Assembly: GCA_014382905.1 (NCBI GenBank)
Contig: JACNIU010000199.1
Span: forward strand, 1 to 34,378
DNA: 34,378 bases
DNA from: Desulfobacterales bacterium
GTDB lineage: Bacteria > Desulfobacterota > DSM-4660 > Desulfatiglandales > Desulfatiglandaceae
Reading direction: 5' to 3'
The position numbers and the translations under genes are program-made. The notes under the pieces were generated by a model that worked only from the letters and a program-made list of their open reading frames with translations, had not been told where the DNA came from and did no database searches. Positions 19,256 to 23,186 of this stretch are shown one piece after another (within the stretch, counting starts at the first letter, position 1; each line of letters opens with the position of its first letter).

Positions 19256-21937
19256 CTAATGTGCCTCATCCCAGTTCCTCCCCTTATTGATATCCACCTT
19301 CAGGGGCACCTTCAAGGGATAGACCCCTTCCATCTCTTCCCTGATCATCGGCACAACCTTCTCCAGCTCTTCTGCCGGAACCTCGAATACCAGCTCATCA
19401 TGGACCTGAAGGAGCATTTTGGACCTGAACCCACCCTGCCCCAGACGGTTGTGGATATTGATCATCGCCTTCTTGATCAGATCGGCGGCCGTTCCCTGGA
19501 TCGGCGTATTGATGGCCATCCGCTCTGCCTCGGAACGAATCCGGTTGTTGGCGTGCTGGATATCAGGCAGGTACCGCCTCCTGTTAAAGAGGGTGGTCAC
19601 ATATCCGTTTTCTGAGGCCTTCTGAATCATTTCATCCCGATACCTTGCCACGCCCTGATACCGCTTATAATAAGCTGCGATGTAATCCCTGGCAATCTTT
19701 TGGTCTATGCCCAGCTCCTCACTCAGTTTCCGGGGACCCATCCCATAAATGATACCAAAATTAATCGCCTTTGCAATCCGCCGCATCTGTGGGGTGACAT
19801 CCTGACGGTCCGCGCCCATGATCTCCGAGGCGGTCCGGGTGTGAATATCCCGGTCCTGCTGGAATGCCTCAATAAAGGCCTCATCCTCTGAATAATGTGC
19901 AAATACCCTCAATTCTATCTGACTGTAGTCCGCTGAAACTAAGTATTGCCCCGCTTCGGCCACAAAACCCTTCCGGATCTCCCTCCCCTCTTCTCCCCTG
20001 ACGGGGATATTCTGCAGGTTCGGGTTGCTGCTGCTCAACCGCCCCGTGGCTGCAACCGTTTGATTATAAGAGGTATGGACCCTGCCGGTAGATGGATCAA
20101 CAATCTTGACCAGGGCGTCGAGGTATGTGGATTTAAGCTTTGAAAGGGTCCTGTAACGGAGGAGGAGTTTCGGTATCTTGAAGGCCAATGCGGAAAGCGC
20201 TTTCAACACCTTCACGTCCGTTGAATAGCGCCCGGACTTGGCAGTCTTCTTCTGGCTGGGGAGCCCGAGCTTTTCAAAAAGCACATAGCCCAACTGCTGT
20301 GGTGAATTGATGTTGAACTCCATGCCGGCCTCGGCAAAAATCTCTCCCTCCATCTCCTTCATCTCCTGCGCAAAGCGAACCGACATCTCCCGGAAAAAAC
20401 CGGCGTCAATCTTGATCCCGGTCATTTCCATATCCATGAGTACGGGGAGGAGTTTCATCTCAAGGTCATAAAAAAGCTTGTCATTTTCCTCAGCCCTCAT
20501 TTTTTGATCGAGAATGCGGCTCAGCCTGAAGGTTATATCCGCGTCCTCGCAGGAGTATTCACAGGCCTTTTCTATCTCCACCTCGGAAAAGCTGCGGGCG
20601 TTTTTCCCTTTGCCGGCGACCTCTTCGTAACTGACCATCTTATGATTCAGATAATGCTGGGCCAGATAATCGAGGTTGTGCTGCCTGATTCCGGGATTGA
20701 TCACATATGACGCGATCATGGTATCAAAATTAATCCCTTTCAGCTCGACCCCATGCCGTTTCAACACCTCGGCATCATATTTGATGTTCTGGCCTATCTT
20801 CAAAATCCGTTCATCCTCCAAAATCCCTTTCAGGATGGGAAGGACCTCTGACCATTCAAGCTGGACAGGGACTCCCAGATAAAGGTGCCCCAGGGGCAGA
20901 TAGGTTGCCTTGGCCTCTTCGCAGCAAAGGGAGATACCCACTAACCCGGCCCGGAGCGGGTCCTGACCGGTGGTCTCCGTGTCTATCGAAAGGATGCCCG
21001 CCTCAACTACCTGCTCTGCTAAGGCCGCAAGTGCCTTCATTGAAAGACAGAGCCTGTAGTCTTTGGAACCTTCCTCCCTTGACGCAAATTGATCCCACAA
21101 CCCCCTGAACTCGAGTTCCCTGAAGATGGTCGCAAGCGCATTGCCGGACGGCTGACCGAGCCTGAGCTGCTCAAGGTCCTCATTCATCGGAACAAACCGA
21201 TCGATGGTGACCAAGTCTTTACTCAAGAAGGCCTCATCGCGAAACGATTTCAGGTTTTCCTTCAGTTTCTTTTTCTTGACCTCTTCCACACGATCAAAGA
21301 CATTTTCGAAAGACCCAAATTCCTGGATAAGGGTGATTGCCGTCTTTTCTCCCACTCCGGGGACACCCGGTATGTTGTCCGTCCTGTCCCCGGACAGCCC
21401 CATGACATCGATAAATTTCTCAGGCTCAAATCCATAGTCTGTTTTCAAAGATTCATAGTCAACAACCCGGTCCTTCATGGTATCCCACATGGAGGTGGCA
21501 GGCGTTATCAACTGTCTGAAATCCTTATCCCCCGTCACCATGACCGTCCTAAAACCGTTTTCCTCGCAGATCCTGACCCAGGTTCCGATGATATCATCTG
21601 CCTCGAATCCCTGAAGCTCAAACATTTTAATGCCCAAATTTTTCACTACCTCTTTGAGGGCAGGGAGTTGCACCGCCATATCTTCCGGCATCGGGGGGCG
21701 GTTTGCCTTGTAATCTTCGTAGATCTTGTGCCTGAAAGTGGGGCCTTTGGTATCAAATACAATGGCCAGGTATTCGGGGTTCTTTTCCGTAAGGAGCTTC
21801 AGGACCATCTTGGTGAAGCCGAGGATCGCGTTTGTGGGAAAGCCCTTTGAATTGGCCAGGCCCCTTATGGCATGATAGGCTCGGTGAATGTATGAACTGC
21901 CGTCTATTAAATAGACCGTTTTTTTATCCTGAGGCAT
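19256..21937 (-). CDS. polA: DNA polymerase I
   Basis: Family A polymerase for repair and Okazaki-fragment processing. A 5'-3' exonuclease domain (about 1-290: YLIDGSSYIHRAYHA, MVTGDKDFRQL, GDRTDNIPGVPGVGEKTA) is followed by a 3'-5' exonuclease domain with intact acidic motifs (SIDTETTG, NIKYDAEVL, YSCEDADITFRL), so proofreading is likely. The polymerase domain shows motif A VSADYSQIELRV, motif B RRIAKAINFGIIYG and motif C QVHDELVFE. I prefer the ATG at 21937 (893 aa) over the track's TTG at 21958, because family proteins begin just before VYLIDGSSYIHR. There is no ribosome binding site. A TATAAT lies 6 bases before this ATG, so a leaderless message is possible. Confidence 0.95.
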   Translation of the reverse strand: MPQDKKTVYLIDGSSYIHRAYHAIRGLANSKGFPTNAILGFTKMVLKLLTEKNPEYLAIVFDTKGPTFRHKIYEDYKANRPPMPEDMAVQLPALKEVVKNLGIKMFELQGFEADDIIGTWVRICEENGFRTVMVTGDKDFRQLITPATSMWDTMKDRVVDYESLKTDYGFEPEKFIDVMGLSGDRTDNIPGVPGVGEKTAITLIQEFGSFENVFDRVEEVKKKKLKENLKSFRDEAFLSKDLVTIDRFVPMNEDLEQLRLGQPSGNALATIFRELEFRGLWDQFASREEGSKDYRLCLSMKALAALAEQVVEAGILSIDTETTGQDPLRAGLVGISLCCEEAKATYLPLGHLYLGVPVQLEWSEVLPILKGILEDERILKIGQNIKYDAEVLKRHGVELKGINFDTMIASYVINPGIRQHNLDYLAQHYLNHKMVSYEEVAGKGKNARSFSEVEIEKACEYSCEDADITFRLSRILDQKMRAEENDKLFYDLEMKLLPVLMDMEMTGIKIDAGFFREMSVRFAQEMKEMEGEIFAEAGMEFNINSPQQLGYVLFEKLGLPSQKKTAKSGRYSTDVKVLKALSALAFKIPKLLLRYRTLSKLKSTYLDALVKIVDPSTGRVHTSYNQTVAATGRLSSSNPNLQNIPVRGEEGREIRKGFVAEAGQYLVSADYSQIELRVFAHYSEDEAFIEAFQQDRDIHTRTASEIMGADRQDVTPQMRRIAKAINFGIIYGMGPRKLSEELGIDQKIARDYIAAYYKRYQGVARYRDEMIQKASENGYVTTLFNRRRYLPDIQHANNRIRSEAERMAINTPIQGTAADLIKKAMINIHNRLGQGGFRSKMLLQVHDELVFEVPAEELEKVVPMIREEMEGVYPLKVPLKVDINKGRNWDEAH

Positions 21938-21943
21938 ATTTTT

Positions 21944-21949
21944 ATTATA
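21944..21949 (-). promoter_or_regulatory. Possible -10 box for leaderless polA transcription
   Basis: A consensus TATAAT lies on the minus strand 6 bases before the preferred polA ATG, so transcription would begin at or next to the start codon. No good -35 is visible 16-18 bases upstream (TTTTCG region). Weak evidence. Confidence 0.3.
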
Positions 21950-22285
21950 TTTCAACAAATCAAAAACGAAAAGAACTAATTTCAGGCCTCGTTAAATAGT
22001 TGATTCGACCCGTTATAGCGTATCCGGTATCCAGCGGCCAGTATCCGGTATGGAATGTCCAATTTCCAGGCAAACAACAAACCACATGATGACAACAATT
22101 CAACTACTCGACTCTTAGACCACTTGACGAGATCGTGCGGAGAAGGGAAAAACTGTTCTTTTTAGCCAGGCAATCTGTCGGGGGCATATCGCCTGCTGGA
22201 TGCGCTGCTTGCATTCCTGTATTATCCGGAACGCCACACAATTGCCTTGACACTCAAACCCGGTTGGGCAATACTTTTTTCTAAT

Positions 22286-22304
22286 AGTTCAGCCACTAAG
22301 GCAC
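22286..22304. repeat. Left arm of a perfect 19-bp inverted repeat flanking the GxxExxY pseudogene
   Basis: AGTTCAGCCACTAAGGCAC is the exact reverse complement of 22552-22570. Similarity continues inward in weaker form (CAAGACACCAGG against the reverse complement AAAGGCTCAAAGG). Confidence 0.9.
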
Positions 22305-22317
22305 CAAGACACCAGGA

Positions 22318-22530
22318 TTATAATATAATTCTCTTGATACCGTTCATATACAATTGGGATATCAACTTGCCTTTGATATCTTAACCCTCGTTTGGATAGC
22401 TCATGACAGAAACAAACTTCATAAACTTTTCAAGCAAACCCGGTCCTAATATCTTATGCACGGTATATGCCGCATCTACAATTTTTTTAGCAATAGATTC
22501 TTCTCTTTTTGATAGGGGATTAAAATTCAT
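22318..22530 (-). pseudogene. Decayed GxxExxY family gene (frameshift plus internal deletion)
   Basis: The minus-strand ATG at 22530 opens MNFNPLSKREESIAKKIV, then AAYTVHKILGPGLLEK, a GxxExxY-type N-terminus (GLLEKVYE). After GLLEK the frame is lost: the run GAAAAG (22426-22431) appears one A short. Reading on in the next frame gives VYEVCFCHELSKRGLRYQRQ and VDIPIVYE, the expected continuation. It then jumps back in frame 1 to NGIKRIIL and a stop (22321-22323), which resembles the family's C-terminus. About 50 or more residues between these parts are missing relative to the usual length of about 125 aa. The family's role is unknown. It is too fragmented for the ORF track. Confidence 0.82.
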
Positions 22531-22551
22531 GTCCTTCTCCTTTGAGCCTTT

Positions 22552-22570
22552 GTGCCTTAGTGGCTGAACT
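22552..22570. repeat. Right arm of the 19-bp inverted repeat flanking the GxxExxY pseudogene
   Basis: GTGCCTTAGTGGCTGAACT matches the left arm (22286-22304) perfectly in inverted orientation. The arms bracket the pseudogene and its ribosome binding region (GGAGAAGG, 22532-22539). Confidence 0.9.
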
Positions 22571-22616
22571 GTTACACTTTTTTCAATCTATAAAACTGAG
22601 CTATGGAGGTGGATAA

Positions 22617-23186
22617 ATGGATATACGCCTGAAGGCACATGTGGAATGCTTGGACGGCAGGGTTGGGCGTCTGGAAAACATCATCCTCAACCCCAAGACG
22701 GAAAAGGTGACGTACCTGGTTGTCAGGGGAAACGATCTCCAGAACACCGAGAGGATTGTCCCTGAAAAGCTGGTTAAAGAGGCCACGCGTGATACGGTCC
22801 ATCTTTCGATCGACAGGAACAAATTTGAGAGGATGAAAAGTTTTATACAGGAGGAATACATCCCTTCCAATATCATGATGTATATGGCTGAAAATGTCGG
22901 ATGGGATGCGGGAACGCCGGCGGGTGTGTTTGTCGAACATGAGGCCGTTCCGGCCGGTGGGCTTGTTGTTCACAAAGGCGCCGGGGTGTTTGCCACGGAC
23001 GGACATGTCGGCCGGGTTGACGAGTTCCTCGTGGAGAAAAAGAGCGGGCGTATCACCCATCTTATCATGCTGGAAGGACATTTGTGGGGAAAAAGGGAGA
23101 TATCTATCCCTGTCAGCCAGGTAGATCACTACGAGGACGGGAAAATATATCTGAAGATTGACAAGCGCGGAGTGGAAGGGCTTTAA
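22617..23186 (+). CDS. PRC-barrel domain protein (two PRC-barrel units)
   Basis: 189 aa, soluble, no signal peptide. The first PRC-barrel-like unit (about 3-75: KAHVECLDGRVGRLENIILNPKTEKVTYLVV) and the second (about 115-185: GVFATDGHVGRVDEFLVEKKSGRITHLIM...IPVSQVDHYEDGKIYL) share the xDGxVGRV...TEKVTHLV pattern. PRC-barrels occur in photosynthetic reaction centre H subunits and in RimM, and as stand-alone stress-associated proteins. The function here is unknown. The ATG at 22617 has an excellent ribosome binding site (GGAGGTGG). It is followed after 15 bases by the AsmA-like gene, probably in one transcript. Confidence 0.85.
   Translation: MDIRLKAHVECLDGRVGRLENIILNPKTEKVTYLVVRGNDLQNTERIVPEKLVKEATRDTVHLSIDRNKFERMKSFIQEEYIPSNIMMYMAENVGWDAGTPAGVFVEHEAVPAGGLVVHKGAGVFATDGHVGRVDEFLVEKKSGRITHLIMLEGHLWGKREISIPVSQVDHYEDGKIYLKIDKRGVEGL

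Follow-up and report, generated by a model that had tools for sequence, protein, structure and literature searches.

Results

An element with inverted ends lies between polA and a PRC-barrel gene

The window, a 34,378-nucleotide stretch of DNA from a Desulfobacterales bacterium, corresponds to contig C46 in a genome assembly of sulfate-reducer type that totals 4.56 Mb in 500 contigs, with a completeness of 97.9% and a contamination of 7.7%. The divergent genes for DNA polymerase I and a PRC-barrel protein are separated by an intergenic region that contains, upstream of the latter gene, a 295-bp element whose limits are set by an alignment of 12 copies from the host assembly, by 8-bp duplications, and by an empty site in genome G035. 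The features of the locus are as follows.

19256–21958, minus strand: DNA polymerase I gene (polA; PF00476, PF02739, PF01367, PF01612), the left neighbor, outside the element
22273–22280: left target-site duplication ACTTTTTT, with an identical direct copy at 22576–22583
22281–22575: whole mobile element, 295 bp, a MITE-like copy of a GxxExxY cassette
22281–22312, plus strand: terminal inverted repeat on the 3′ side of the gene, (G>C)TAATAG followed by TTCAGC and the iterons CACTAAGG/CACCAAGA/CACC
22286–22304, plus strand: arm 1 of a perfect 19-bp inverted repeat core
22318–22530, minus strand: GxxExxY (PDDEXK_3) gene remnant, frameshifted and with its catalytic middle apparently deleted (PF13366 match and translation)
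22548–22575, minus strand: terminal inverted repeat on the 5′ side of the gene, GTAACAGTTCAGCCACTAAGGCACAAAG
22552–22570, minus strand: arm 2 of the 19-bp core
22576–22583: right target-site duplication ACTTTTTT, an identical direct copy of 22273–22280
22617–23186, plus strand: PRC-barrel protein gene (PF05239), the right neighbor, outside the element, its start codon 42 bp from the element end

An earlier note on this DNA had described a GxxExxY remnant bounded by a perfect 19-bp inverted repeat, and both arms are exact: AGTTCAGCCACTAAGGCAC occurs at 22286–22304 on the plus strand and at 22552–22570 on the minus strand, with 0 expected in shuffled sequences. The unit of about 285 bp that it placed at 22286–22570 coincides with this repeat core and falls 5 bp short of the element on each side. 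When extended, the arms match over 27 nt at 93%. Their outer end reads GTAATAG or GTAACAG, with the first G changed to C in the window copy, and their inner sequence is a period-8 array, CACTAAGG-CACCAAGA-CACCAGGA. For both strands, the predicted fold of the element is a single long terminal stem (z −6.1 and −5.2), and Rfam gives no match within 22200–22700. Roughly 200 bp away on the polA side, positions 22014–22075 hold a solitary period-7 array, CGGTATCCAGCGGCCAGTATCCGGTATGG (self-identity 0.53, 0/2000 shuffles), which is possibly the relic of a TIGR02436-type cassette.

The gene remnant reads from 22530 to 22318 on the minus strand as MNFNPLSKREESIAKKIVDAAYTVHKILGPGLLEKFMKFVSVMSYPNEG-stop...YMNGIKRIIL-stop and matches PF13366 over 22337–22447 (E = 1.7e-6). 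Aligned with the near-intact homologue L134, it appears to have kept its N-terminus, to be frameshifted in the part that follows, and to have retained the C-terminal NGIKRIIL; about 45 residues carrying the D, ExK, and Q active-site positions have probably been deleted. This agrees with the frameshifted, internally deleted GxxExxY gene first proposed for the locus. No intact window-type GxxExxY gene was seen in the host assembly.

Gene-dead copies have moved within the host genome

With up to three mismatches allowed, the host assembly contains 39 occurrences of the end sequence, 20 forward and 19 reverse, and 0 of a reversed control pattern. Twelve copies are complete, and the remaining ends mostly run into contig ends, as those of repeats would. 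All 12 are flanked by 8-bp duplications with 0–1 mismatch, perfect in 10, and they align as internal deletions of one parent. The 293–295-bp class comprises the window and C78 copies, which are identical at 292 of 293 positions and occupy different sites with different duplications. Three copies form a 165-bp class (99–100% identical) and six a 143–156-bp class (97–100% among copies of similar length), with one further form overall. Because each deletion class, 97–100% identical, occupies several sites, the copies without an ORF have moved; the dead-gene form itself was mobile, and these copies must therefore have been moved by something acting in trans, recently. The earlier note expected the inverted ends to outlast the gene as it decays to a MITE-like form, and the host copies support this.

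Target duplications and empty sites demonstrate insertion

Among 62 elements of 123–484 bp, 35 carry a duplication with at most one mismatch, compared with about 1% of mismatched left/right flank pairs. The duplication is exactly 8 bp long, identity falling sharply at any other length, and the insertion sites are A+T-rich.

To detect empty sites, joined flanks were searched against relatives. G035 has the window site without an insertion, and in G035 or G001 matches run across the join of four further host sites (C78, C239, C140, and C20), the C140 match consisting mostly of a neighboring tRNA. At the L261 site, G060 carries CCTTATAA-element-CCTTATGA and G256 a single uninterrupted CCTTATGA. 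The L248 site contains a GxxExxY ORF in G056 and is empty in G254, G256, G060, G257, and G048. Empty sites with a single target copy thus show insertion with target duplication directly. The L261 region is an insertion hotspot (L271 and L272 near the L261 site, and L267). In G054 and G048, a related element has inserted independently about 10 bp away from where the G060 element lies. About 60 bp further, G256, G054, and G048 carry a second insertion, which belongs to a different, unrelated repeat family.

Related cassettes carry intact or near-intact GxxExxY genes

Exact ends are present in 85 stretches of GTDB r220, and the named records are nearly all Desulfobacterota-type MAGs (Desulfobacteraceae, Ca. 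Desulfatibia, Desulfatiglandales, and others), a few being labelled only Pseudomonadota or bacterium. In related Desulfobacterales, cassettes with a GxxExxY ORF have duplications matching at 7 of 8 positions in L134/L072 (484 bp; GAAAAAAC/GAAAAAAG), L258 (AATCTTTC/AATCTTTT), L248 (TAGAAATT/TAAAAATT), and L254 (TTTCAAAG/TTTTAAAG). The iterons of L254 are quite different (CACAGAT), yet its outer end is the same GTAACTATTCAG.

The proteins of L134, L248, and L258 are about 8 residues short at the C-terminus, and the L258 gene has an N-terminal palindromic insertion as well. Secondary palindromes lie inside the GxxExxY genes of L258 and L259 (G060) and of L134, L248, and L249: those in G060 have a GC-rich palindrome after codon 8–9, and in every window-type relative that has an ORF the protein is cut short by a small palindrome of the AATGCGCCTCAGGCGCATT type.

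The intact genes are clear family members, scoring 153.7 bits (L001) and 133.7 bits (L072) with the TIGR04256 profile against a curated cut-off of 35. All of 26 intact sequences compared share the residues G29, G31, E34, Y37, D74, E84, K86, and Q98, a GxGxxExxY...D...ExK...Q pattern that fits an active nuclease. A sequence-based search returned no relatives of solved structure, and a structure prediction from three sequences reached a pLDDT of 47.9, too low for interpretation.

Matched iteron arms flank GxxExxY genes in diverse bacteria

The earlier note had also proposed examining the flanks of other GxxExxY genes in Desulfobacterota for inverted ends and target duplications, and looking for empty sites. 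Inverted arms (score at least 30, within 350 bp of the gene) are found at 42 of 54 such genes; controls gave 0 of 140 at the same loci and 15 of 270 for mismatched pairs of arms. Each arm consists of three cassette-specific iterons of about 8–10 bp (e.g., CCGCAGAGGCGCAGAG, CCACGAAACACACGAAA, and CCACAGATTCACACAGAT). The same design recurs in Gemmatirosa, Bacteroides finegoldii, Bernardetia, and two viral-collection contigs; it is not clear in Persicobacter, Fusobacteria, and Sphingomonas. On the Sphingomonas plasmid NZ_CP155749.1 (L316), only tens of bases separate the GxxExxY gene from fabD on one side and fabG on the other, and iterons are visible on one side only. On a plasmid of Fusobacteria bacterium ZRK30 (L317), the gene has no inverted arms and is flanked by a perfect 22-bp direct repeat, CAGATTTAATCCGTGTACCTAT (L317 932–953 and 1389–1410).

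Individual cassettes show further features. In the CGCAGAG-type cassettes (L001, L111, L218, L221, and L227), each arm is continued by a perfect hairpin whose loop is GAGA-like (e.g., GATCCAATCGCGAGAGGGCGATTGGATC). Three near-identical cassettes are arranged in tandem in one genome at L265 (G189:C3:168500-173300), every one having inverted arms of its own, and L266, in G125, is another three-gene cluster.

The mean arm score is 41 within one cassette and 24 for same-side arms of cassettes whose proteins are 60–80% identical; because a cassette's own arms match each other better, its ends evolve in concert. Arm similarity also follows protein similarity (Mantel r 0.46, permutation p < 0.001).

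Target duplications accompany the window-type cassettes, as in the 12 host copies, but cassettes outside this lineage show no enrichment over mismatched controls, and are either old insertions in which only the arms have been maintained or of different origin. The proposal that GxxExxY units move as cassettes therefore holds for the window-type lineage, with its inverted ends, duplications, and empty sites, whereas arms without duplications elsewhere make movement by the same route only a suggestion for the rest. GxxExxY genes occur in 8 of 72,556 plasmid records and at 3 IMG/VR loci, and with so few matches plasmids and phages are no obvious vehicles.

Cassettes of the S23p type have arms with a different period

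In the same relatives, genes of the TIGR02436 family (four helix bundle, S23p type) lie between inverted arrays at 19 of 30 loci (L350–L379 in 61 relatives, the host's own being L373, G000:C307:7904-8221). Their arms have a strict 7-bp period in 42 of 50 cases (e.g., AAGGCGCAAGGCGT, TCAGTTATCAGTTG, and TTGGACAATGGAC), compared with a period of 8–10 in 82 of 94 GxxExxY arms. That iteron spacing follows the encoded protein is the strongest hint so far that each protein may read its own arms. A comparable arrangement is the intervening sequence (IVS) of Coxiella 23S rRNA, in which an S23p ORF is accompanied by inverted ends of 28 bp and by heptamers GACAGAT in tandem, and which is excised by RNase III (PMC4990558).

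No transposase gene is found between the ends

In six TIR-bearing genomes, we found no autonomous element with the same ends: among the matches listed, no converging pair of ends lies more than about 600 bp apart, and the ~600-bp element contains no ORF. GxxExxY is the sole ORF ever found between these ends, and tnpA, tnpB, tnpC, or any other transposase ORF is absent between matching ends. All genomes are MAGs, whose assemblies break at repeats, and many host ends coincide with the end of a contig; an autonomous element may have been lost in this way, which makes its absence weak evidence.

We considered IS66 first, as it has ends starting with GTAA and makes 8-bp duplications (PMC11946415); local IS66 copies in G032 start with GTAAGCGTCAGAG and likewise have an 8-bp duplication. 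The host has one IS66 tnpC gene. A profile search of 61 relatives found no IS66 transposase in G046, G056, G060, G050, G054, G044, or G055, and the likeness between element ends and local IS66 ends beyond GTAA reaches a best shuffle p of ~0.02 among 30 comparisons.

Discussion

Any account of this locus has to explain the inverted ends, the 8-bp duplication, the empty sites, the recent movement of gene-dead copies, and decay by internal deletion. We favor, with a probability of about 0.7, a non-autonomous, MITE-like element derived from a GxxExxY cassette and moved in trans by a candidate DDE-type transposase. The parental cassette would comprise one small gene for a PD-(D/E)XK nuclease, flanked by terminal inverted repeats that each consist of three 8–9-bp iterons and an outer end that is conserved (GTAAYAGTTCAG or GTAACTRTTCAG), and the window unit would have arisen from it by internal deletion and frameshift. 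A putative DDE-type transposase, suggested because inverted ends together with an 8-bp duplication are the hallmark of strand transfer at staggered cuts, would recognize the outer ends and catalyze movement. The iterons of intact cassettes may in turn be read by the encoded GxxExxY protein, since iteron sequence and spacing go with it.

The principal alternative, to which we give perhaps one chance in four, makes the GxxExxY protein itself the mobility protein, binding the iterons at both ends and cutting, with spread completed by repair or a recombinase of the host; the short copies would then be classical MITEs mobilized by their own parent's product. It would account for GxxExxY being the only ORF between these ends, for short copies that are internal deletions of the cassette, and for the lack of a transposase with the same ends in our searches. 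The concerted evolution of the ends (41 versus 24), the tracking of iteron spacing with protein family (8–10 for GxxExxY, 7 for TIGR02436), and the invariance of catalytic-type residues in 26 sequences point the same way. PD-(D/E)XK nucleases, however, hydrolyze DNA, and strand transfer is not known for this fold, whereas a precise 8-bp duplication normally requires a strand-transferring enzyme. Cassettes with other outer ends lack duplications, and the outer end GTAACTATTCAG is common to cassettes with different iterons, which suggests a second recognizer. Linked descent alone, moreover, can produce the correlation between protein and iterons. A broader version, tentative to a similar degree, places GxxExxY cassettes in a general class of selfish elements that carry a single gene (a nuclease with 8–10-bp iterons, a four-helix-bundle S23p-type protein with 7-bp iterons) in which the protein would read its own iterons and drive both spread and end homogenization, MITE bursts being by-products.

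A specific form of the trans-acting transposase reading, in which an IS66-family enzyme moves the cassettes as IS66 mobile insertion cassettes or MITEs, is doubtful. The GTAA ends, the 8-bp duplications shared with IS66 (PMC11946415) and with the G032 copies, and the single host tnpC speak for it, but the resemblance of the ends stops at GTAA and the transposase is missing from the seven TIR-rich relatives named above, so that IS66 acting in trans is unsupported beyond GTAA and the 8 bp.

It is more doubtful still that the inverted ends act mainly on RNA, the terminal stem being removed from transcripts by RNase III so that insertions are harmless, as the Coxiella IVS with its 28-bp inverted ends and S23p ORF would suggest by analogy (PMC4990558). 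The long stem on both strands, the TIGR02436 cassettes with matching period-7 arrays, and the GxxExxY gene between fabD and fabG are consistent with such a role, but any long inverted repeat folds in this way, the window copy is intergenic and upstream of a gene, and neither the 8-bp duplications nor the copy number is explained. RNA processing would account for tolerance rather than movement and may complement transposition rather than compete with it. An immobile terminator, regulatory palindrome, or chance repeat, which the position between divergent genes and the strong folding might have suggested, is already refuted by the multiple copies, exact 8-bp duplications, and empty sites, and we assign it almost no weight.

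GxxExxY proteins are annotated in many bacterial phyla with their function unexplained, and are named in just three of 5.39 million open-access papers. The passages we found there describe neither flanking iteron arms nor mobility, and GxxExxY genes between matched iteron arrays appear to be undescribed in the open-access literature searched. The cassettes place the gene in a genetic setting: it is framed by inverted iteron arrays that match each other, and in one lineage such units have demonstrably moved and shed MITEs. This makes the role of GxxExxY directly testable. The cassettes may also help to explain the short intergenic tandem repeats common in environmental bacteria.

Comparison with known systems

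The family shares with MITEs its short length (123–484 bp), terminal inverted repeats, fixed 8-bp duplication, dispersed copies with insertion polymorphism, internally deleted forms, and the absence of an intact transposase ORF. It differs in that the longest parent form seen encodes a GxxExxY nuclease rather than a transposase; with no autonomous transposase-encoding parent with the same ends found in the six genomes searched, we call it MITE-like and not a classical MITE of a known transposon. Mobile insertion cassettes carry a passenger gene between transposon ends with no transposase, and those of IS66 resemble the present cassettes in this respect and in their GTAA ends and 8-bp duplications; here, however, the ends beyond GTAA mismatch local IS66, tnpA, tnpB, and tnpC are absent, and most TIR-rich genomes lack IS66. 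In REP/REPIN systems, too, paired inverted repeats are dispersed and one nuclease-type gene is associated with them, but REPs are short hairpins, RAYTs are Y1/HUH transposases, and the gene here is of the PD-(D/E)XK type and accompanied by target duplications. At the protein level, intact cassette genes belong to TIGR04256/PF13366, of which the window copy is a recognizable remnant, although these library entries cover the protein only and not the flanking arms.

The 23S rRNA intervening sequences have the same architecture of one small ORF, terminal inverted repeats, and short tandem iterons, and in both the ORF decays while the ends stay. Intervening sequences lie in rRNA genes and have heptamer iterons, whereas GxxExxY cassettes lie elsewhere (the window copy between polA and the PRC-barrel gene), have 8–10-bp iterons and a nuclease ORF, and in the window type show 8-bp duplications. 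The common architecture connects GxxExxY cassettes with those S23p cassettes that are known as rRNA intervening sequences.
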